Source: Phycisphaerae bacterium | GTDB lineage: Bacteria > Planctomycetota > Phycisphaerae > UBA1845 > Fen-1342 | Reading direction: 5' to 3' | Assembly: GCA_022072445.1 (NCBI GenBank) | Contig: JAJVHV010000013.1 | Span: 1 to 64,000, forward strand | Length of the DNA stretch: 64,000 nucleotides | In this document: positions 43 through 47,184 of the stretch, one piece after another | Layout of the letters: each line of letters starts with the position of its first letter | Numbering within the stretch: the stretch's first letter is position 1 | Translations under genes and position numbers: made by a program | Notes under the pieces: generated by a model | Databases searched by the model: none | The model's input: only the letters and a program-made list of their open reading frames with translations | What the model was told of the DNA's origin: nothing

Positions 43-486
43 ATGACTCCGACAGCCGCCCGAGCGTCCATGTTGGCATACGTGTCGATCCTGATCCTCG
101 CCGGTCCGACGACCGCTGTGCTGTGCGATGACTACATTCCGGAGTTTCACTGCCACTATGAGAGCTGTGTCAGTGCCAGCAAGTGGTGCATCGCGCCGAC
201 TGGACTCGGTGAACCGACATCGTGCAAATACTGCACGAAACAGTCGCCGCCAACCGACTGGTTCTGCGCTTCCGAGGCTGCGCAGATTTGCCGCGCCGCG
301 AGTTCGGAACCTAATTTCACTTGTGGGAATCTGGTTGAAAACGGAACGTGCAACGCACAAACTGGTCAATGCGAAGGTGGAAACGCTAACCTCTTCAAAA
401 CCTGCAAGGTCCACACTTGCACGCCGGAAGCCAAGCCGGGCGCAGTAACGGGAGCAAGTCCATGTGTACGATTGCAACAACGGTGA
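43..486 (+). CDS. Cysteine-rich secreted small protein
   Basis: Not a family I can name. The 147-residue product begins with a hydrophobic export signal (about residues 10-26, ending near TTAVLC), and the exported part carries 14 cysteines, often in C-x2-C or C-x(4-8)-C spacing, suggesting a disulphide-rich extracytoplasmic domain. A GGGAG ribosome-binding site sits 7 bases before the ATG. It overlaps the start of the next gene by 25 bases, which implies translational coupling. A second small cysteine-rich secreted protein lies at 43993-44367, also upstream of a paralogue of the large protein found at 2259-3668, so the pairing looks functional. Role unknown; binding or folding of a partner at the cell surface is inference only. 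Confidence 0.7.
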   Translation: MTPTAARASMLAYVSILILAGPTTAVLCDDYIPEFHCHYESCVSASKWCIAPTGLGEPTSCKYCTKQSPPTDWFCASEAAQICRAASSEPNFTCGNLVENGTCNAQTGQCEGGNANLFKTCKVHTCTPEAKPGAVTGASPCVRLQQR

Positions 487-1508
487 CTTTCGCGTTGCTG
501 GGAATCGCACCGTCCGACGCCAACGACGCGTACGCCACATACGCGTCGCAGGTCGTGCCGGTCCGTGCCCAGATCGTCTGGCGACTGCTTCAGGCACCGA
601 AGGGGCCGGACCTCTGGGACCAGAGCCGCTGGATCGACGCGCCGGCGCCGCCGGGCATCAAGGGTGAGCGCAACCTGGAACTGCGCCTCCGCGGCGCTGA
701 TTTCGCTGTCCAGGCCACTGGCCAAATCGAGCCAGGCGTGGAGTCCAACGTCGCGTGGATCGACCGGACATGCACCGAAGTGAGCCGGTCCGCCGATGGC
801 CAATCGTCGACGACGATCAGCGACACCTGCCACAACGGCTTGTTCGATCTCTGCAGCGTACCGACGGTGTTCGCGGGCATGCTGCCGCAACAGCGTCAGT
901 TCCTCCGCGACCTCGCCGCGGCCGGAAGGCTTGAGACGCTGGAGGCAACCGCGGACGCAGTCAGTTTCCGGTCGCTGGGCCCCCCGCTCACCATCGTGCA
1001 TGCCATCGAAGGCACGCTTGATCCGCGGCGCGGCGGGATGCCGGTTCGCCTGAGGTTGACGAACATCAACATCCAAGAGCCCTTCTATCGCGAGATGCGC
1101 GTCGCCGAGTCGACCTCGATCGACGGACTCGAAATTCCCACGCTCGCGTACGTGCTCTGGGTGCCGTTCGGGGACCACGTCACGATCGAGGAGTTCCGGC
1201 TGACGTCCATCGAGCGCGATGACACCATCACCTCCGAGACGCTGGCTGTCGCACCTGTTCGGCAGAACGGCGACGTGCTGGATCGGTTCGCCGGCGAGGC
1301 CGTCCGCTACGGCCCGGACGGGTCCGTCCTGTCGCGGCACGACTTGTCGCATGCGAACTCGCTGGCCGTCGGGCACGCCATGCAGCGGCAGATTCTGGCC
1401 GACGCGACGCGCGAGCGGCGCGGAGCGGCGATGCAGGTCATGGTGCTCGGCGCCACCCTGGCCACAGCCGGCGCAGCGTGCTTCGCGTGGTTTCGCCATC
1501 GCCGTTGA
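462..1508 (+). CDS. Secreted or membrane-anchored protein of unknown function
   Basis: 348 residues from the ATG at 462. An upstream in-frame ATG at 417 would add 15 non-signal residues, whereas the one at 462 is preceded by GGAG and opens directly on a signal-like segment (MCTIATTVTFALLGIAPSDA). The middle is beta-rich without a motif I recognise. The last 25 residues form a membrane segment followed by R-H-R-R, so the protein is probably anchored with its bulk outside. It overlaps the cysteine-rich gene before it and is followed 6 bases later by a MauE/DoxX-like membrane gene. Its beta-strand pattern faintly resembles the N-terminal part of the 2259-3668 product, but I would not claim homology without an alignment. 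Confidence 0.7.
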   Translation: MCTIATTVTFALLGIAPSDANDAYATYASQVVPVRAQIVWRLLQAPKGPDLWDQSRWIDAPAPPGIKGERNLELRLRGADFAVQATGQIEPGVESNVAWIDRTCTEVSRSADGQSSTTISDTCHNGLFDLCSVPTVFAGMLPQQRQFLRDLAAAGRLETLEATADAVSFRSLGPPLTIVHAIEGTLDPRRGGMPVRLRLTNINIQEPFYREMRVAESTSIDGLEIPTLAYVLWVPFGDHVTIEEFRLTSIERDDTITSETLAVAPVRQNGDVLDRFAGEAVRYGPDGSVLSRHDLSHANSLAVGHAMQRQILADATRERRGAAMQVMVLGATLATAGAACFAWFRHRR

Positions 1509-1514
1509 CGCGTG

Positions 1515-1970
1515 ATGCGCCCAGCGCTGATTGACCGGCTGACGCTCGGATGTGCGGTTGTGTTCGTCATTGCCGGAACAGTGAAAGAGCTCGACCTTGA
1601 TCGGTTCGAGCGATCACTGTTCAACTCGGTATTCTTCTCGCTCCAAACCGCGTCTCTTCTCGCACCGCTTCTGGCAGTCGGTGAGATAGTCATCGGCGTT
1701 GGGCTGTTCGTTCGGCTAATGCGCCCATACGCTGCGGCGCCAGCGCTTTTTCTCAGCCTCGTGTTTGCGTCCTTTCACACGTACATTCTTGCCAGCGGCG
1801 AAGCGGTTGACTGTGCATGTGCCGGCATACTGCTGGACCACTCAAACGCAGCGACGCACGCCGGCTTGCTCGTGCTCTGCACACTGCTGGTTGGCATCAG
1901 CGCGCTGGCGCTCGATCGGGGCGTCGTGCGTATCAGTGCGGGGCAGAGGCCGTCATTCCCGTACCCGTAG
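1515..1970 (+). CDS. MauE/DoxX-like integral membrane protein
   Basis: About 151 residues with four hydrophobic helices (roughly residues 10-28, 45-70, 75-95, 115-135). The short motif V-D-C-A-C-A-G between helices 3 and 4 matches the position of the paired cysteines in MauE/DoxX-type proteins, which in some bacteria pass reducing equivalents across the membrane. A GTG at 1512 directly precedes the ATG; the ATG is preferred. Sitting among cysteine-rich secreted products, a part in thiol-disulphide chemistry of that operon is plausible, but this is inference. The 289-base gap to the next gene holds no other convincing gene. Confidence 0.6.
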   Translation: MRPALIDRLTLGCAVVFVIAGTVKELDLDRFERSLFNSVFFSLQTASLLAPLLAVGEIVIGVGLFVRLMRPYAAAPALFLSLVFASFHTYILASGEAVDCACAGILLDHSNAATHAGLLVLCTLLVGISALALDRGVVRISAGQRPSFPYP

Positions 1971-2258
1971 CCACCGTCGTGGTTCGCGACTCAACGGGCA
2001 AGCGCACCAGGACTCTCCTGTCCGCGTCTTGAACTCCCGGCGCTCCTGCTCGATTGGGACTTCCGCCGGTTGTCGGCGCGGTCAGCGCGGGCCAAAGAAA
2101 ACAGATTCCGCGCTTGACAAAGCCGGCCGTGGGGGTAGGTATGGGTGAGGTCGAAGCTCCACGTCCAACTCTCATGGAGGTCGGTGCATGTTTCGAAGTG
2201 GGGTACCGCAAATCGTCGTCGTCCCCGCCGTGGGGGCCCCCGCCCGCCTGAACACGTC

Positions 2259-3668
2259 ATGATCGCCTCGGTCGTTGTTCCCGTTCTGTTGAGTATCGCC
2301 GGTCAGAGTGGCGGCTGGAGCCACGAGGTGCCGCGCGAGCTGCTGGCCATGGAGCAGTCGCGCAACATCGCCCGCGGGCACGTCACCTGGACGTATCGGG
2401 ACCATGAAAACCGCCGCGCCAAGCATTACACCTCGCGCTTCGCGGGCGAAGACTACATCCACGTCGATCGCGGCGACGACGACGGCGTCGTCTTTCGCGG
2501 ACCGACCGGCGAGCCGATGGTCGGTTTCTCTCGTCCCCATTGGAAGGCGACGTTGCTCTCGGGCGATAAGGCCTGGACGCACGACGGTCGCTACATCCTG
2601 GCAGACCTGGAGAAACGGGTCGTGAGAGCCTCGTTCATTCCCGACGTGCGCGGCATCGGCCTGTCGCCGACGCAGCGCCTGTGCCTCGATGCGCATGAGG
2701 CCGTCTGGATGTCGGGGCTGCACAAAGGCGTCACCGAGTTCCGGGTTGAGTCGGAAGGTCCGCTGGCGGTCGTCCGCGCCCGTAACACCATCGGTGACGG
2801 TCGCACGCACGAGATCGCGTGGTGGCTCGACCCGAACAAGAACTTCGCCGCCGTCCGCACGCAAGAGCTTGAGGACGGCAGGATGATTCGCGAAACGCGC
2901 ATCGCACTGGCCGAATCCGGCAAGGTCTGGTTTCCCGAGCGAATCGCCTGCTATCGCTCCGACTATCGTGACGGCGCCGAGCCGTGGCAGGAACTCACGG
3001 TCGATACGGCAACGTTCGCCGATTCGTTGCCCGAGAAGTTCGACCCGTCCGACATCGGGTTGGAAGTGGGGATGAATGTCACCGACCAGATCGATCGGCG
3101 ATCAAACCTACTCTGGGACGGCGAGAAGCCGGTCACAGGAAAGGAATTCGCCGACCGCGAGCGCGCAGGCGAGAGAATCACCGTCGGTCCCAATTGTCGG
3201 CGCGCATTCGCGTCGCTCGATCAGCTTCGCGAGGCCGAGGTCGCCGCCGGGCTGCACGAAAAAGACCGCGGCGAACTGTGCGACCCGTTGACACCCCGCC
3301 GCTCGAAGCTGTGGGAGGACTACGTCAAGACGTTCATCAAGGTGTACGAGCTTGATGGTGGCCAGATTCAGCGCGCCTGGACGATCCACAAGACCTGCCT
3401 GGAGCAGGCCGAGTCGTACGAGAAACGCCGCAAGTCCGAAATCGAGGCGGCCGAGGCCGAGGTCGGACGCCTCATGTCGCTGGCACCCGACGCCAAGGAG
3501 CGTTTGGAGAAGCTCGGACCGGCCGTCCGCGAGCGCACCAAGCTCGAGGAGCCGATCGTGCGCATCTTCGACGAGCAGTTGTCGCCGCGCCTGGAGCGCC
3601 TGCCGACCCGTGCTCAACGCGACGCGTACCCCGGCGTGATGAAACGCATCCGCGAAACGGGGAAGTAG
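2259..3668 (+). CDS. Large secreted protein, paralogue of 42603-43982
   Basis: 469 residues from the ATG at 2259, which opens on a clear signal segment (MIASVVVPVLLSIAG); the frame is open further upstream but that part is basic and unlike a signal. The first 280 residues are beta-rich and look like LolA/lipoprotein-sorting-type repeats. The last 150 are strongly helical, with a segment Y-E-L-D-x-x-Q-x-x-R-A that recalls LTxxQ (Spy/CpxP-like) helices. It is clearly paralogous to the product at 42603-43982: shared blocks include Y-I-H-V-x-R-G-D, D-I-G-L-E-x-G, L-L-W-D-G, E-R-x-A-G-E and R-L-E-R-L-P-T-R-A-Q-R near the C-terminus. Both copies follow a cysteine-rich secreted gene. Function unknown. 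Confidence 0.75.
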   Translation: MIASVVVPVLLSIAGQSGGWSHEVPRELLAMEQSRNIARGHVTWTYRDHENRRAKHYTSRFAGEDYIHVDRGDDDGVVFRGPTGEPMVGFSRPHWKATLLSGDKAWTHDGRYILADLEKRVVRASFIPDVRGIGLSPTQRLCLDAHEAVWMSGLHKGVTEFRVESEGPLAVVRARNTIGDGRTHEIAWWLDPNKNFAAVRTQELEDGRMIRETRIALAESGKVWFPERIACYRSDYRDGAEPWQELTVDTATFADSLPEKFDPSDIGLEVGMNVTDQIDRRSNLLWDGEKPVTGKEFADRERAGERITVGPNCRRAFASLDQLREAEVAAGLHEKDRGELCDPLTPRRSKLWEDYVKTFIKVYELDGGQIQRAWTIHKTCLEQAESYEKRRKSEIEAAEAEVGRLMSLAPDAKERLEKLGPAVRERTKLEEPIVRIFDEQLSPRLERLPTRAQRDAYPGVMKRIRETGK

Positions 3669-3724: not shown

Positions 3725-6319
3725 CTACCGCCCCGCTCGCCGGCGCAGCAGCGCGGTCAGCACGGCCGCCGCCCCGATCGTCGGCGCCAGCGTCAGCAGC
3801 GTCGCCGCCGACGCGCGCTGCTTCGATTGCGATTCCAGCCGCGCGAGTCGGGCGTGCAGCTCCGCCACTTCGTCGGCGAGCCGGTCGCGCTCCTGGCCGG
3901 CCTGGTCGAGCCGCTGCGTCAGCTCGCGGATCGACTCGATCGCGAGCGCCTCGAACCCGCGGATCGTGAGCGTGCGATAGCCCTCCGCGTCGCGCCCGAT
4001 CCACGCGGGGAAAACGCGCTCCACCTCCTGCGCGATCAAGCCCATCTGCGGGCCGCGCAGGTCGCCATGCATCTGCGGTTCGCGCCATTCATACGTCACG
4101 CCATGCAGCGCCAGAAGCTTGTCCAGCGCGCCGCCGATCTCCGCGATGTTCGTCTTCAGCCGCCGGTCCGATGAATCCGTCCACGCTCCGCCGCCCGGCT
4201 TGGCCGCGCTGCCGTTCACGTGCAGCAGGAACTGCGGCGAGGCGGTGCCGATGCCGACTTTCCCGTCGCTGGCAATCGTGACCGCGGTGCTCAGGTCCGT
4301 CACGAGATACGTGCGGAAGGCGTAGTCGAAGCTCGAGCTGATGTCCGAAACACCGCCCGAATAACCGTTGGCGTTGCCGAACATGAAGAACGCGCCGGCG
4401 TCGCTCACGCGCCACGTGTAGCGCTGGCCCGCTTCCAGATCGATCGGGGTCGTGAGCAGGATCGCCGCGAAGTCTCCGCTGTCCGGCAGTGCGGCGCTCT
4501 GCGTGTGCAGCAGCGCCCCGCCGGTGCCCTCGCCGGCGTAAACCCGCAGCGTGACGTTGCCGCTGCTGCCCTGCCGCCAGAGGTCGATGCGCGTCAGCCG
4601 GCCCGTGGCGCCGGCGGTGAACGACTGCCAGCGGTCATCGTCCGAAAGCGTAAACTCCGCGTCGGACGACTGGTCGAGCGTGCCGGCGGCGGTGTTGAGC
4701 AGGCTGAATTGCAACGCGCCGCCCGCGTCCTGCGAGATCGCCGCGGTGTTCGAACCAACGACGATGCCCGCCGAGCCCACGAACAGCCGTCGCCACTGCG
4801 CGTCGAATGCGCCCAGGTCGGACGCGTCGTCCACCTCAGGACCGATATCGCCGGCGACCTGAAGCATGAAGCCGGGCGTGGCGGTTGTGCCGATTCCCAC
4901 GTTGCCGGTGCTGTAGAAGATGTCGTTGCCGACTTGCGTCCAGATCTGCCCCGACGAAGTCTGCGGCGCCCAGCCCGTGCCGGTATACGTCAGCACCTGC
5001 CCGATCGCCGGCTGCACCGCGCTGACCGGGCGGCCCTGCAACCCGCGGACCGACAAGTTTGAAAACGTTCCGGTAACGTCTCCGCTCGCGCCGCTCGTGA
5101 AACGCACAAACGCGCCCGAATCGAACCCGTCGAACAGGTCCGCGTTCAGCCCGCTGCCCGGTCCGTCGCCCGCCAGCACGAGCGGAAGCACCTCGACGTC
5201 GCGCGTGATCGTCGCTCCGATCCGCGCATCGGCCAGCTCGCCGCTGACGATATCGGCCGCGTCATGCCCGTGGTCGGCCTCGGCAAAATCCGACGAGTCG
5301 AATCCGTCGAGCACGTCCGCGTCGAGTCCGCTACCTGCGCCGTCGGAGCTCAGGACGATCGGCAGCACTTCGCTGTCGCGCGTGACCGCCGCCGGCAGTC
5401 GCGCATCGGCCAGCTCGCCGCTCACGATCTCAAGCGCATCGTGTGTGTGCAGCGCGTCGGCGAAGCTCGTCGAGTCGCGGCCGTCGAGTGAGTCGGCGTC
5501 GAGACCGCTGCCCGAACCGTCGCCGCCGAGCACGAGGTCGATAATCTCGCTGCGCAGCGCCAGGTCGGCGCCGTTGATGCCGTCCACCAGGTCCGCATTG
5601 AAGTTCACGACCAGTTGCGACGAGCTGACGACCAGCGGGGCGGCGGAGAGTTCTTCCGATATCAACTGCCCGCTGCCGCGGATCGAGCCGATCACGTCGA
5701 GCTGCTGCCCCGGCGTCAGTGTGTTGATGCCGATGCGGCCGTCGTTGTCCACGATGATCGCGTCCTTCGGGTCGCCGTCGGGTGCGTCGAGCGAGTTGCC
5801 GTCGCCCGAGCCGCCGCCGTCCTCCCCTGGCGGGCCGGGAGGGCCGGGCGGCCCCTGTGGGCCGGGAGGGCCTTCCGGACCTTGCGGCCCCGTCGGCCCC
5901 TGCGGCCCGGTCTCGCCGGTAGGTCCGGGCGGCCCCTGCGGGCCGGTGTCGCCGGTCGCTCCAGGTTCGCCCTGCGGTCCGGGAGCACCGTCGTCGCCCG
6001 CCGGGCCGGGGTCACCCGCGGCCCCTTGAGGACCGGCTTCTCCAGTCGCCCCTTGCGGACCGAGATCACCTTGCGCGCCCTGCGATCCCGTCGCGCCTGT
6101 CGCGCCGGCCTGTCCCGTCGGCCCCTGTGGACCCGTCGGCCCCTGCGGGCCGGTTGGCCCCTGCGGGCCGACGCGGGCGGCGTCATCGACGGCGTTCGGG
6201 TCGACCGGGCACCCGCCCGACAGTTGCATCAGAAGCAGAGAGATGGCGACGATCCCGACGGTCGCGATTCCGCTTGAGACGGGTCGCATGCGGTGCGATG
6301 ATCCGATATTTGTTGCCAT
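3725..6319 (-). CDS. Collagen-like surface protein with S74 self-cleaving chaperone domain
   Basis: 864 residues. An N-terminal signal ends in L-S-G-G-C (Cys37), a lipobox-like site. Residues about 51-167 are 39 uninterrupted G-x-y triplets (GPQ, GPT, GPP), a collagen triple-helix segment. Next come about three repeats of some 60 residues containing A-D-x-L-D-G-x-D-S and H-x-H-D, as in phage tail fibres, then beta-rich sequence. The C-terminal S-D-R-R-L-K-T-N-I with G-L-I-A-Q-E-V matches the peptidase S74 endosialidase chaperone, whose Ser-Lys pair cuts the domain off after trimer folding. A coiled coil and a terminal membrane segment with R-R-R-A-G-R follow. GGGAG lies 7 bases before the ATG. 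Expected to be a trimeric surface stalk. The final membrane helix after an S74 domain is unusual. Confidence 0.88.
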
Positions 6320-7676: not shown

Positions 7677-8660
7677 TCAAACGGGTTGCCGTCGCCGCCC
7701 TCGCAACCCCGCGCCCGCCGCCAGCAGCAGGAGGGTCGCCGGCTCCGGGACGCTTTCGATCCGAAATATCGTCTGATCGAAGTCGCCGACGAACAGCGTG
7801 CCGTCGGGTGCGAACGTCAATCCGTCGGGTCCGATCACGCCGTCGGCCGCGTTGCGATGATACGTCGCCAGCCGTTGCAGCATGTTCCCGCTCGTGTCGA
7901 TCACGTCGACGTAGCCGTCGCCAAAGCCGGAGAACCGCGCCAGGATCAGATTGCCGGCGTAGTTGCGCAGCTCGCCGGCCGCGTTGGGCGGGATGATCGC
8001 GACGCCGTCAGGCCCCGGCCCGCCCAGATTGCTGCTGATCTGCGTGAGATTGGAGAGCGACAGGTCGTCGCCGGCGATCGCGAAATCCGCCCGCCACAAC
8101 GCGCGGCGATTCCAGCTCGTGACGTAGATCGTGTCGTCATCGAGAAAGCCGATCCCGCCGCCGTTGGGAAACTGAAACGTCGGCAGCGGGAACGAATCGA
8201 GCACGCGGCCGGGTCCGTCGGCCTCGAACTGCGCCAGCACGACGGCCATTGGTGCGTACTGCATCGAGAGATAGCGGCCGCCGGGCAGCAGAAGCAGCCC
8301 GGCATCCGGCTTGCCGTCGAACACGCCCGGGCCGTAACTGACGGAGAGATCGGGCAGAATCGCACCGGAGAGCGGATCAACCGCATAGACGCGATTCGCC
8401 TCGCCGCCCGACACGCTGCCGAAGCTTGCGAGCAGCGTTCCAGCGGCGAGCGTCTGATGATTGATCGTGGCGGCCTGCGGCAAAACGGCCAGGCCGGTGA
8501 CACCCGCCGGGTCCTGTGGTCCGCTCAGCCGCAGCGCCGTGACCTGTGTGCCGGGAAACGCCGGGTCGAGCGTCAGGCTGGGCAACTGTGCGGCGGCGGG
8601 GGACGCGGTCGCCGCGATTGCCAGGAGCAGCGCGGAGCGTCGATTGCGAGTTGTGCTCAT
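7677..8660 (-). CDS. PEP-CTERM sorting-tail exported protein
   Basis: 327 residues from the ATG at 8660 (MSTTRNRRS, followed by an A/L-rich signal ending A-A-A-Q). The body has repeated beta-propeller-like strands (L-P-G-G-R-Y, D-G-T-L-F-V-G-D-F) like NHL/SMP-30-type or streptogramin-lyase-like propellers. The C-terminus is V-P-E-P-A-T, a hydrophobic helix and R-G-R-R-R, the textbook PEP-CTERM tail that exosortase recognises before surface release or anchoring. No exosortase gene is in this window. It is followed on the same strand by the histidine kinase after 130 bases. Ligand or partner unknown. Confidence 0.85.
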   Translation of the reverse strand: MSTTRNRRSALLLAIAATASPAAAQLPSLTLDPAFPGTQVTALRLSGPQDPAGVTGLAVLPQAATINHQTLAAGTLLASFGSVSGGEANRVYAVDPLSGAILPDLSVSYGPGVFDGKPDAGLLLLPGGRYLSMQYAPMAVVLAQFEADGPGRVLDSFPLPTFQFPNGGGIGFLDDDTIYVTSWNRRALWRADFAIAGDDLSLSNLTQISSNLGGPGPDGVAIIPPNAAGELRNYAGNLILARFSGFGDGYVDVIDTSGNMLQRLATYHRNAADGVIGPDGLTFAPDGTLFVGDFDQTIFRIESVPEPATLLLLAAGAGLRGRRRQPV

Positions 8661-8802
8661 CCGCCGCGGCCTCTCACCCATCCGGTACCTCGCCGTCAGC
8701 GATGTTATCCCGCGAATCGTCGCGTAATCAATCCGCCGGAGCGCGACATTGCCGGATGGTGGCGGCGGTTCCTAGAATGAATGACCGCAACGGAGTCGCC
8801 GG

Positions 8803-9636
8803 GTGCTCAATCGCTGGGTCGGAATAATCAGTGCGGTTTTGATGGTGTCGGCCAATGCGGCTCTGGTGCTGCACGACGTCGTGCCGGCCTGGACCGCCGA
8901 CGAGCCGCCCAGCGCTGACGCGGCGCTGACGCCCGGGCAGTCGCGAAGCGTGCAGCTCGACATCTACGACGCGCAGGGCCGGCTTATCGGACAGAGCTGG
9001 ACGGTGGCGCGGCTTGCGGTCTCCATTCTGACGGTTCAGAACTGGACGCTGCTCGAGTCGATCACGTTACCGAACGGCGTGCGCACCCCGCCGGCGCGCA
9101 TCGACAGCGAACTGGCCTATAACGACTCGCGCGTGGTCGATCGTCTCTCGATGCGGATCATCGGGCTGGGATTGCCGGCGGGACTGACGGGCGAGTTCAT
9201 CCCGCCCGACACGTTTCCGTGCGTCTGGCAGATGGGTGAACTTCGCGGGCGCTTTCTGCTGCCAGCCGCGGCGACGCGCGCCCTGGGCGACGTCATTCGC
9301 CCGTTCGATCGGCTTCCCGGGCTTTACGTTGGCCGAAGCTGGCGCGTGAAGCTCGTCAACCCGCTGGCGCAGATTGTGCCCGGGATGGGATCGGCGGCGA
9401 TTGGGGTGGACTCGATGCTGGTCACCGTCGTTGGGCGGGATTCGATCGAACACAACGGAGTGACAGTGAACTGCTACCGCGTCGAGACGCGGCGTGCGAC
9501 GGCCTGGGTGGCCGCCGACGGCCGCGTGCTCAAGCAGACGGTCGAACTGCCGCTGCTCGGGACGCTGACGCTCCTCGATCGTCCGTTCGACGAGGACGCG
9601 CGGCAGCGCGCCCTGATCCGGTTTCGTGGAGGCTGA
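8803..9636 (+). CDS. Exported protein of unknown function, upstream of ABC ATPase
   Basis: 277 residues with a GTG start; the first 24 residues form a signal or anchor helix (WVGIISAVLMVSANAAL). The rest is beta-rich with one cysteine-containing segment and a C-terminal part (V-A-A-D-G-R-V-L-K-Q-T-V-E-L-P-L-L-G-T) resembling the DUF3108/LolA-like style, though I cannot assign the family. The ABC ATPase gene starts 11 bases after its stop, so the two are probably co-transcribed and may act together. Function unknown. Confidence 0.65.
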   Translation: MLNRWVGIISAVLMVSANAALVLHDVVPAWTADEPPSADAALTPGQSRSVQLDIYDAQGRLIGQSWTVARLAVSILTVQNWTLLESITLPNGVRTPPARIDSELAYNDSRVVDRLSMRIIGLGLPAGLTGEFIPPDTFPCVWQMGELRGRFLLPAAATRALGDVIRPFDRLPGLYVGRSWRVKLVNPLAQIVPGMGSAAIGVDSMLVTVVGRDSIEHNGVTVNCYRVETRRATAWVAADGRVLKQTVELPLLGTLTLLDRPFDEDARQRALIRFRGG

Positions 9637-42145: not shown

Positions 42146-42571
42146 GTGCACGCCGATTCGATCCAGTTCGCGCAGCCGTCACACGCGGCAGGGTTCTCCG
42201 AGCTCGCCGGCTCGAGCAACCACGTGCTGACGCGTCCGCGCCGCGTCGCGCTGCTGATGGTGGGCGTGTGGATCCTCAATGCGTTCGACCTGGGTTTTAC
42301 CGGGATCGCGACGGCACTGGGGAATTTCACCGAGCTGAATCCGATCGCGGCGCACCTGCTCGACACCGACTGGACGCACGTCATGCTCTACAAGATCGGG
42401 CTGACGGCGCTGGGCACGCTGATCATGATGCGCCTGGCGCGGCACTCGGTCGCCGAGCTGGGCTGCTGGTTGCTGTTCAGCGCCTACGTCTACGTCGCGG
42501 TGCGCTGGTACGTCTACTACGAGTACTGGTTCAACGAGACCGCGATGCTCTACCGCTTCTCCAACATGTAG
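42146..42571 (+). CDS. Small membrane protein of the DUF5658 type
   Basis: About 141 residues if translation begins at the GTG at 42146, which has only a weak upstream site; the frame is open to 41978. Three helices: V-A-L-L-M-V-G-V-W-I-L-N-A-F-D-L-G-F, then Y-K-I-G-L-T-A-L-G-T-L-I-M-M, then L-L-F-S-A-Y-V-Y-V-A-V-R-W-Y. The motif N-A-F-D-x-x-F-T ... E-L-N-P-I-A is the hallmark of this small family. Function unknown. It converges with the helical paralogue gene 32 bases on. Confidence 0.65.
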   Translation: MHADSIQFAQPSHAAGFSELAGSSNHVLTRPRRVALLMVGVWILNAFDLGFTGIATALGNFTELNPIAAHLLDTDWTHVMLYKIGLTALGTLIMMRLARHSVAELGCWLLFSAYVYVAVRWYVYYEYWFNETAMLYRFSNM

Positions 42572-44499: not shown

Positions 44500-47184
44500 C
44501 TACGAGCGCGTTGTAGCGGCGGGTCGTGTGCTGGTGCTGGCGGGTTGGCTGGTGGCGCGCCACTGCTGCGACTTCGCGTCATAGCCCTTGCCCGGCTCAG
44601 CCTTGTCCCAATCGCGGTACAAGTCAGCCAGGTCGTGGGCCATGCTGCCGGCGATCGGGTGGTCTTCGCCCAGCGTGCGGTCGATGATCGCGCGAGCCTC
44701 CAGCAGCATCGGCTCGCCCTCGGCGTAGCGGTGCAGGGCGCCCAGACACGAGCCGTACCAGCCGAGAATGAACGCCAGCCCCTGTGCGTCGGCGGGCAGC
44801 GCCTCGCGGGCGTTCTTCAGCGCGCGGTCGAGGTACACGATGGCGTCCTCGAAGCGACCGCGGGCGCGCAGATAACTGCCCATGTTGGCGATACTGGCGA
44901 TCGTGTCCGGATGCTTCTCGCCGAGCCTGCGGCTACTGATTTCGATGTCCTTGAGTGCGAGTCGGTCGGCGTCGTCGAACATGCCCAACGCTTTGTAGAC
45001 CGTGCCGAGATTATTCATCACGTCGAGCGTGCCGGGATGCTCCTCGCCCAGAATCCGGGTGCGCGCCGCCAGCGTCTCCTCGTTCAGCACCCGCGCGCGG
45101 GACAGCCGCCGCTGGTAGCCCTCCGGGTCGGTCTGCTTCATGCCCGCCATCGCGACGGAGTAGAGCATCCAGGCAAGGTTGGCGCGAATTCCGAGCGCGG
45201 CCGGGTGCTCGGGGCCGGTCAGGCGGACCTGAATCTGCAGGGCCTCCTCGAGCACCTTTTCGGCATCGTCAAAGCGGCCCAGGTCGGCATAAAGCAGCGC
45301 CAGCGTGTTCATGGCACTGACCGTATCGGTGTGCTCCCGGCCCAACGTGTCGGTGCGGATTTCGAGCAGCTCGCGCGCCAGCCCCAGCGCTTCTCTCCGC
45401 CGCTCCATGAGCAGATAACACTGTGTGAGAGCGTCGAGCGTCAGCGCGGTGATCTCGTGCCGGCGGCCGAACAGCCGCTCGTGCTCGGCCAGCGCCTGGG
45501 TAAGCAACTGCTCGGCTTCGGCGAACCGGGCCTTCTTCACCAGGACGCCGCCCAGGGCAGCGACGGCCCGGCAGGTGTCCGGGTGTTCGCGGCCGAGTTC
45601 GCGCGTCCAGGTGCTGAGGGCTTCGCGGAGGTGCGCTTCGGCGGCGTCGTAGTCGCCAAGGTTCAGATACGTGCTGCCGATCGTTCCGTGCAGACGAGCA
45701 GCGACCAGCGGGCGATCCTTGAACTCAGCCGCGAGCGAACTGGCGGCGCGGTCGAGCACGCTGCGGACGGTCACGTCCTTGCCCTGAACGTTCGGGTCGG
45801 CGGCGCCCAGCATGTCGTCCAGGAATTTCACCGTCGCTTCGGACTCCTGAAGACGCGTTTCGGCGAGCGCCCGCTGCGCCGCTTCCGCGGCCTGCGCTGC
45901 GATCGCGCGTTTCCGCTGAAGCTCAGCGCGAGCCAGGCCGACGCTTGTGCCGACGATGCCCAACACCAGCGCCGCGACGACCAGCGCCGCCGCCGTGACG
46001 GCGCCGCGGTGCCGCCCGATGAATTTGCGGACCAGATAAGTCCGGCTGGGCGGCGCCGCGACCACCGCTTCGCCGCTGAGATAGCGCAGCACGTCGGCGG
46101 CGAGCCCGTTGGCGGTTTCGTAGCGGCGGCTACGGTCCTTCTCCAGCGCTTTCATCACGATCCAGTCGAGCTCGCCGCGGACGTGGCTGCCGAACTTCCT
46201 CGTATCGGTCTGCGGGCCGCCGCTGCGCGTCCTGGCTCTTTCGGACAGCCGCGTCGAGGGCTTGGGCGGCTCGACCTCGCGGATGATGCGCTGAATCTCG
46301 CCATACGCGGCCGAGCGCAGGCTGCGGGCGTCGAAGGGCGTCGTGCCGGTGAGCAGCTCGTAGAGCAGGACGCCGAGCGAGTACACGTCCGTCCGCGTGT
46401 CGATGTCGAGCGAGCCTTCGGCCTGCTCCGGGCTCATGTACTGCGGCGTGCCGATGAGCTGGCGATGCTCGGTGAAGTAGGTCTTCTCGGTCAGCTTGCT
46501 GGAAGTGGCCTTGGCGATGCCGAAGTCGATGACCTTCGCGACCGGGCGGCTGTCCTGAGCGCTGACCAGCACGTTGCTGGGCTTGATGTCGCGATGAATC
46601 ACACCCTTGGTGTGAGCGTGCTGGACGGCCTGACACACCTGCGCGAAGAGCCCAAGGCGGTCACGGACGCTCAGGTTGTTCTTGTCGCAGTAGTCGGTGA
46701 TCGGCTCGCCGCGGACCAGCTCCATCACGAAGTACGGCCGTCCGGTCTCCGTCGCGCCGGCGTCAAACACCTTGGCGATGCTGGGGTGATCCATCAGCGC
46801 CAGCGCCTGACGCTCAGCCTCAAAGCGGGCGATCACGGCCCGCGTGTCCATCCCCAGCTTGATGATCTTGAGTGCCACCTTCCGCGCCACCGGCTCGCGC
46901 TGCTCGGCCAGAAACACGCTCCCAAAGCCGCCTTCGCCTAGCTGCTGCAGCAGCCGGTAACGGCCGATCGCCGCACCGACGTGCTCGGCGGCGTCGCCGG
47001 CGGTGATGGTGGAGATTCCGCTGGACGTCAGCGTCGCGGGGTGTTCGCCGCTGGCGGAGTCGGAATTTCCCGCCCGCGTCTCGGCTTCGGAGCCGGCGCT
47101 GGCAGCCGCCGGCCGCGCATCGCGCAAGGCGTCGGCCTCGCTGGGTTGATCGGGCCGGGGCGCACTTTCGTGGGACGATGCCAT
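44500..47184 (-). CDS. Ser/Thr protein kinase with TPR repeat sensor region
   Basis: 894 residues from the ATG at 47184. An 80-residue low-complexity leader precedes a complete Hanks-type kinase domain: G-E-G-G-F-G-S-V, Lys106, H-R-D-I-K-P-S-N (197-204), D-F-G-I-A-K (220-225), [11 protein letters not shown] single membrane helix (about 400-425, [15 protein letters not shown]) is followed by about 450 residues of TPR-like repeats of 42 residues with A-L-G or L-Y-x-D-L, similar to TPR_12. Such planctomycete receptors place TPRs outside the cytoplasm. The C-terminus is Ser/Thr/Pro-rich. A large stem-loop at 47288-47320, the dnaK terminator, lies between it and dnaK. Confidence 0.92.

Follow-up and report, generated by a model that had tools for sequence, protein, structure and literature searches.

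Cysteine-rich exported proteins encoded next to LolA-fold partners in one planctomycete order

Genes for small, cysteine-rich exported proteins are found directly in front of genes for LolA-fold partner proteins, forming a two-gene unit that recurs in one order of planctomycetes. The unit appears to be undescribed so far: a literature search returned no paper on such a Cys-rich/LolA-fold unit, or on Cys-rich proteins of the Phycisphaerae. The window, i.e., the 64 kb stretch of DNA analyzed here, which forms the first part of a 117.5 kb contig from a planctomycete genome of 5.25 Mb, carries two loci with such an arrangement. Two unnamed families of exported Cys-rich proteins thereby gain a conserved genomic partner, which provides a handle on their function.

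Genes of the two loci

The genes at the two loci are:

cysA, 43–486, + strand: small exported Cys-rich protein (147 aa, 14 Cys) of a second 12-Cys family, linked to midA
midA, 462–1508, + strand: exported protein (348 aa) with a C-terminal membrane anchor, distant homolog of the LolA-fold part of Big
mauE, 1512–1970, + strand: MauE-family membrane protein with a CxC motif
bigA, 2259–3668 (likely start 2259), + strand: Big-family paralog of bigB
cysB, 44367–43993, − strand: small exported Cys-rich protein (124 aa, 15 Cys) of the 12-Cys family linked to Big
bigB, 43982–42603, − strand: exported protein (459 aa) with a predicted LolA fold and a helical domain containing the conserved Cys375

Locus 1 spans positions 43–3668 and comprises four genes. 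The immediate neighbor of cysA is midA, which overlaps it, and not bigA, which lies 289 bp beyond mauE and has no Cys-rich ORF immediately upstream. At locus 2, bigB starts 11 bp past cysB. The ORFs are real and, as had been predicted, both Cys-rich proteins have a hydrophobic N-terminus; no lipobox was seen by eye in either of these two proteins. The MauE/DoxX-like redox candidate proposed for locus 1 was borne out by a match of its third gene to PF07291 with E = 2.2e-15 (57.6 bits, against a cut-off of 27), with DoxX at 2.4e-5. No Pfam family was found for the other proteins of the two loci.

The two large proteins, BigA and BigB, had been described as paralogs on the basis of short shared blocks, and they are indeed related over their full length, with 156 of 448 residues identical (35%; E = 1e-67). 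The original prediction also held that the two loci are copies of one module, in which a Cys-rich gene is followed by a Big gene. This order is found at locus 2, but not at locus 1, where cysA adjoins midA. Furthermore, CysA and CysB have no detectable similarity, with a profile comparison matching 20 columns only, and their genes adjoin different LolA-fold genes. The duplicated cysA/cysB module was therefore rejected. Locus 1 instead carries a separate unit that parallels the one at locus 2 and consists of cysA, midA and mauE, followed by a Big gene that has no adjacent Cys-rich partner. Since an exported Cys-rich protein is followed by a LolA-fold protein at both loci, the common theme was right, but the pairing assigned to locus 1 was wrong.

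Other genes were noted around the loci. Next past bigA, on the opposite strand, positions 3725–6319 (−) encode an exported protein of 864 aa that contains collagen-like GPxGPxG repeats and whose C-terminal region by eye resembles an intramolecular chaperone (SDRRLKTNI motif). The gene for a Ser/Thr protein kinase with a repeat region lies on the same strand as cysB and 133 bp upstream of it (44500–47184, −). Similar small membrane proteins with an ..ELNPIAA.. motif are encoded convergently beyond Big at 42146–42571 (+) of the window and at L119:4112–4432 (−), a resemblance that may be due to chance.

Pairing in other genomes

Pairs were counted at 40 further Big loci by fixed criteria (a same-strand, Cys-rich, signal-bearing ORF directly upstream), with 179 other genes from the fetched Big neighborhoods serving as controls. 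A cysB-type gene was found directly upstream in 36 of 53 full-length Big genes, a fraction that is not exact for the order because the sample leans toward close relatives of the query, compared to 4 of the 179 control genes (Fisher p = 9e-25). Two of the four control positives were cysA–midA pairs. In the genome that contains the window, bigB and a copy on contig C12 are paired, and bigA and the copies on C8, C3 (253 kb), C25 and C15 are not. The idea that every Big gene is paired was rejected, since about a third of the sampled full-length genes, bigA included, have no adjacent Cys-rich ORF; in these cases, Big must either do without a linked client or rely on one encoded elsewhere.

Searches that began with the Cys-rich protein supported the pairing independently. 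One from cysB alone led to a copy in genome G008 that adjoins a Big gene. When a three-sequence Cys-rich profile was run against whole genomes, it gave four new strong matches, all four directly upstream of Big, and one further, marginal match that contains an internal stop and is not upstream of Big. A profile built from 31 sequences gave 30 matches in 114 genomes, all of them beside Big by coordinates and two previously unseen. The distances among the Cys-rich proteins correlate with those among their Big partners (Mantel r = 0.23, p = 0.0005), and both partners have the same nearest neighbor in 15 of 35 pairs, indicating that the pairs tend to be co-inherited.

Of the 12 midA matches, which come from six genomes, nine have a cysA-type gene directly upstream. 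A gene for a small Cys-rich exported protein directly precedes midA in the window and at L078, L079, L194, L195, L196, L199, L201 (two copies) and L202, while shortened Cys-rich versions are present at L198 and L200. In L197, the order is a shortened MauE gene, a cysB-type gene, Big and midA, an arrangement that ties the cysB–Big and cysA–midA units together. The expectation that pairing would be kept in other genomes thus proved correct for Big and midA alike, and with the full-length relatedness of the Big proteins, the idea of a conserved envelope unit of a Cys-rich and a LolA-like protein survives.

The alignment of 31 Big-linked Cys-rich sequences contains eight invariant Cys columns, three that are nearly so, and a twelfth that is present in most. 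The cysA-type proteins have another 12-Cys framework, separate from this one. Outside the cysteines, mean pairwise identity is 12% for the Cys-rich proteins, compared to 26% for their Big partners. Two close comparisons gave dN/dS values of 0.19 and 0.21 for the Cys-rich genes, which shows these ORFs to be real genes under purifying selection. Neither the cysA nor the cysB family had a convincing match in Pfam, NCBIfam or the PDB; a lone match to VWC2L (E = 0.0049) was seen in one of the 31 cysB-type members. A small Cys-rich ORF of another kind (L018:5963–6217; 84 aa, 12 Cys), located on C3 of the genome that contains the window, lies directly upstream of a gene for a thioredoxin-like/HEAT-repeat protein (L018:6254–7369), and the two may constitute a third kind of Cys-rich pair.

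BigA has 14 matches in the genome that contains the window, and seven of these are full length. A profile search found the Big family in 111 of the 114 genomes of the order; many of these matches are to the C-terminal helical domain alone, which also occurs in other proteins. In a sample of 392 genomes from the phylum, for which few candidates per genome were scored, so that weak relatives could be missed, Big was found at E 1e-20 in two genomes, our own and one with a partial match, and the 12-Cys family in none beyond our own. A contig search with the Big profile yielded 27 loci, all from planctomycetes and many named Phycisphaerae, most of which match the helical domain only. Two tandem Big copies in G073 (C56:5128–6276 and 8097–9245) have identical scores, reflecting either a recent duplication or an assembly repeat.

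Predicted structure and redox neighbors

The predicted structure of BigB (pLDDT 91) places Big in the LolA superfamily at the level of the modeled fold. Residues 19–272 form a LolA-type curved β-sheet, for which a structure search returned 9tp6 with E = 6e-10, and the model superimposes on 9tp6 and 4z48 (DUF1329) with Z = 15.2 over 200 residues; RseB and MucB were also among the structural matches. By sequence, LolA_like (PF17131) matched weakly in two of 52 Big members (best E = 0.031). Residues ≈306–452 are helical and have no assigned family; the structure matches listed, from a search with the whole-protein model, cover residues 19–272 only. The proposed description of these proteins as LolA/Spy-like is thus upheld for LolA by the predicted fold, but not for Spy, since there was no Pfam Spy/LTXXQ match in the 52 members or in the isolated helical domain. 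The sole Spy-like sign is the presence of L..xQ-like motifs, seen by eye in the helical domain and in related stand-alone proteins. Within the helical domain, 47 of 52 Big proteins retain Cys375, whether or not a Cys-rich gene adjoins their own gene, and no other Cys column exceeds 10 in these 52 proteins.

MidA is a distant homolog of the LolA-fold part of Big, judged from a profile–profile comparison with hhalign (E = 7.8e-6, compared to 0.40–0.85 for nine reversed or shuffled controls). The CysB model is all-β with a moderate pLDDT of 81, the other four of the five models being no higher than 66. A PDB fold search with this model gave nothing at Z = 2 or more, which does not by itself establish a new fold, because the confidence of the model is only moderate. 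Searches of Pfam, NCBIfam and PADLOC gave no useful functional name for the Cys-rich, Big or MidA proteins.

Two kinds of neighboring genes point to disulfide chemistry: DUF1573 by the Big–Cys pairs and MauE by midA. A search for DUF1573 in ten genomes gave 51 matches, nine of which are next to Big genes by coordinates, and MauE adjoins midA in 6 of 28 places; about 0.1–0.2 and 0.015, respectively, would be expected by chance, both order-of-magnitude figures, the former from a rough gene count. The DUF1573 gene is usually upstream of the Cys-rich gene, and is found once (G022:C620) at an unpaired Big gene. An intact MauE gene lies beside the unit in six midA cassettes, and MauE is tied to midA and not to the cysB–Big pairs, apart from the shortened copy in L197. 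A redoxin gene follows one Big gene. A role for MauE in aiding disulfide formation in the β subunit of methylamine dehydrogenase has been proposed, according to the account in PMC7794033 (citing van der Palen 1997). Gene context (MauE and DUF1573) lends support to the redox theme of the common function suggested for the two loci; disulfide-based folding or capture is what we infer.

DUF1573 and MauE genes also occur close together away from the Cys-rich units (L022:12956–15280, on G000:C19), with similar coordinates in G005, G013, G015, G022 and G023.

Possible functions and related systems

The best explanation, to which we assign a probability of roughly 0.4, is that the Cys-rich protein is a secreted client served by a dedicated LolA-fold carrier or chaperone and by disulfide helpers. 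The unit probably makes and delivers disulfide-rich surface or secreted proteins. In favor of this reading are the gene pairing and its recovery from the Cys-rich side, the conserved frameworks, the correlated distances of the partners, the purifying selection, the LolA fold of the Big model, the MidA–Big homology, the MauE and DUF1573 neighbors and the conserved Cys375. The client would be a small exported protein held by about six disulfides, and its partner the exported LolA-fold protein encoded directly after it, either the soluble Big, whose helical domain contains the conserved thiol, or the membrane-anchored MidA. This partner would receive the newly exported client in the periplasm, hold it in a state that permits correct disulfide formation, presumably aided by membrane thiol chemistry of the MauE type where the partner is MidA, and then deliver it to the cell surface or the medium. 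The client sequences diverge rapidly, and their work is therefore probably at the surface or outside the cell, where variety would be favored. Counting against the client model are the third or so of the sampled full-length Big genes that stand without a neighboring Cys-rich gene, the presence of the conserved Cys375 in the proteins of these genes too, and the tie of MauE to midA rather than to the cysB–Big pairs. A further point against it is that the cargo of classical LolA, which it moves between membranes, is lipid-modified, whereas CysA and CysB showed no lipobox by eye. The present results suggest that individual Cys-rich clients can have LolA-fold proteins dedicated to them, and extend to a family the MauE idea of membrane thiol chemistry for one disulfide-rich client.

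Several other explanations were considered. The Cys-rich proteins could be cross-linked components of the wall or matrix, with the LolA-fold partner as a structural part or assembly factor. Other planctomycetes do have Cys-rich wall proteins, the YTV proteins (PMC8567305), and exported DUF1573 proteins, which are Ig-like, are encoded beside many of the pairs, but the very high divergence is unusual for a structural protein and no known wall family was matched in Pfam or NCBIfam, so we regard this role as unlikely. A function as variable secreted effectors, either antimicrobial or as self/non-self markers, with the LolA-fold protein delivering them or protecting the producer, would fit a hypervariable scaffold with fixed cysteines that is order-specific and present as several paralogous pairs per genome. 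We nevertheless consider it quite doubtful: dN/dS values of about 0.2 in two close comparisons give no sign of positive selection, nothing was matched in the PADLOC library, and no recognizable delivery system was found among the listed neighbors of the pairs.

There is a slight chance that the unit is a sensor pair, in which an RseB/MucB-like LolA-fold protein binds ligands and signals, and the Cys-rich protein is its variable ligand-binding or regulatory half. The structural matches to RseB and MucB and the kinase gene upstream of cysB are consistent with this arrangement, but no kinase, sigma-factor or anti-sigma gene recurs among the listed neighbors of the pairs. It is highly improbable that the Cys-rich ORFs are not genuine, or that the pairing is a sampling artifact. 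Coding scores are low for many of these ORFs, in part owing to an unusual composition, and the Big sample is skewed as described above, but the common framework and the low control rate argue against chance, which is effectively refuted by the held-out matches beside Big and by the purifying selection seen in dN/dS. Beyond the client and its LolA-fold carrier, we tentatively raise a broader idea, itself rather unlikely, that the pairs form a lineage-specific repertoire for surface binding or conflict, with a set of exported proteins in each genome, a fixed 12-Cys scaffold, nearly all else varied, and a dedicated LolA-fold partner that delivers each member. This would be a bacterial counterpart of defensins and other repertoires built on a cystine scaffold. 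The unit also points to what seems to be an undescribed secreted repertoire, in a planctomycete group that is largely uncultured.

Among known systems, the LolA superfamily (LolA, LolA_like PF17131, P. gingivalis LolA3 9tp6 and DUF1329 4z48) resembles Big in the predicted fold of residues 19–272 and in being exported, whereas Big adds the C-terminal helical domain, many paralogs per genome and the adjacent Cys-rich gene. RseB and MucB likewise combine a LolA-type N-terminal domain with a second domain, but in Big this domain is helical, and no anti-sigma partner was seen beside Big genes. The nearest functional analogy is the disulfide-rich small subunit of methylamine dehydrogenase, the maturation of which needs MauE and MauD. 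In the mau operon (MauE, MauD and the small subunit), as here, a MauE membrane protein is encoded with a small disulfide-rich exported protein; in contrast, no known family was matched by the Cys-rich proteins described here, the unit includes a LolA-fold protein as well, and MauE is missing at most Big–Cys pairs. The YTV-type wall proteins of Planctomycetales are also exported and Cys-rich, but have no sequence match to the proteins described here, which are small, single-domain and hypervariable, are encoded beside a LolA-fold gene, and belong to a different planctomycete group. The Spy/CpxP (LTXXQ) periplasmic chaperones resemble Big in its helical exported domain and in the L..xQ-like motifs seen by eye, although that domain matches no Pfam family.

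A widespread type of protein has the helical domain of Big but lacks its LolA part (L018:7391–8887, L106, L108, L166 and others). In these proteins, a second helical stretch, which contains LTxEQ-like motifs, is located in front of the domain.
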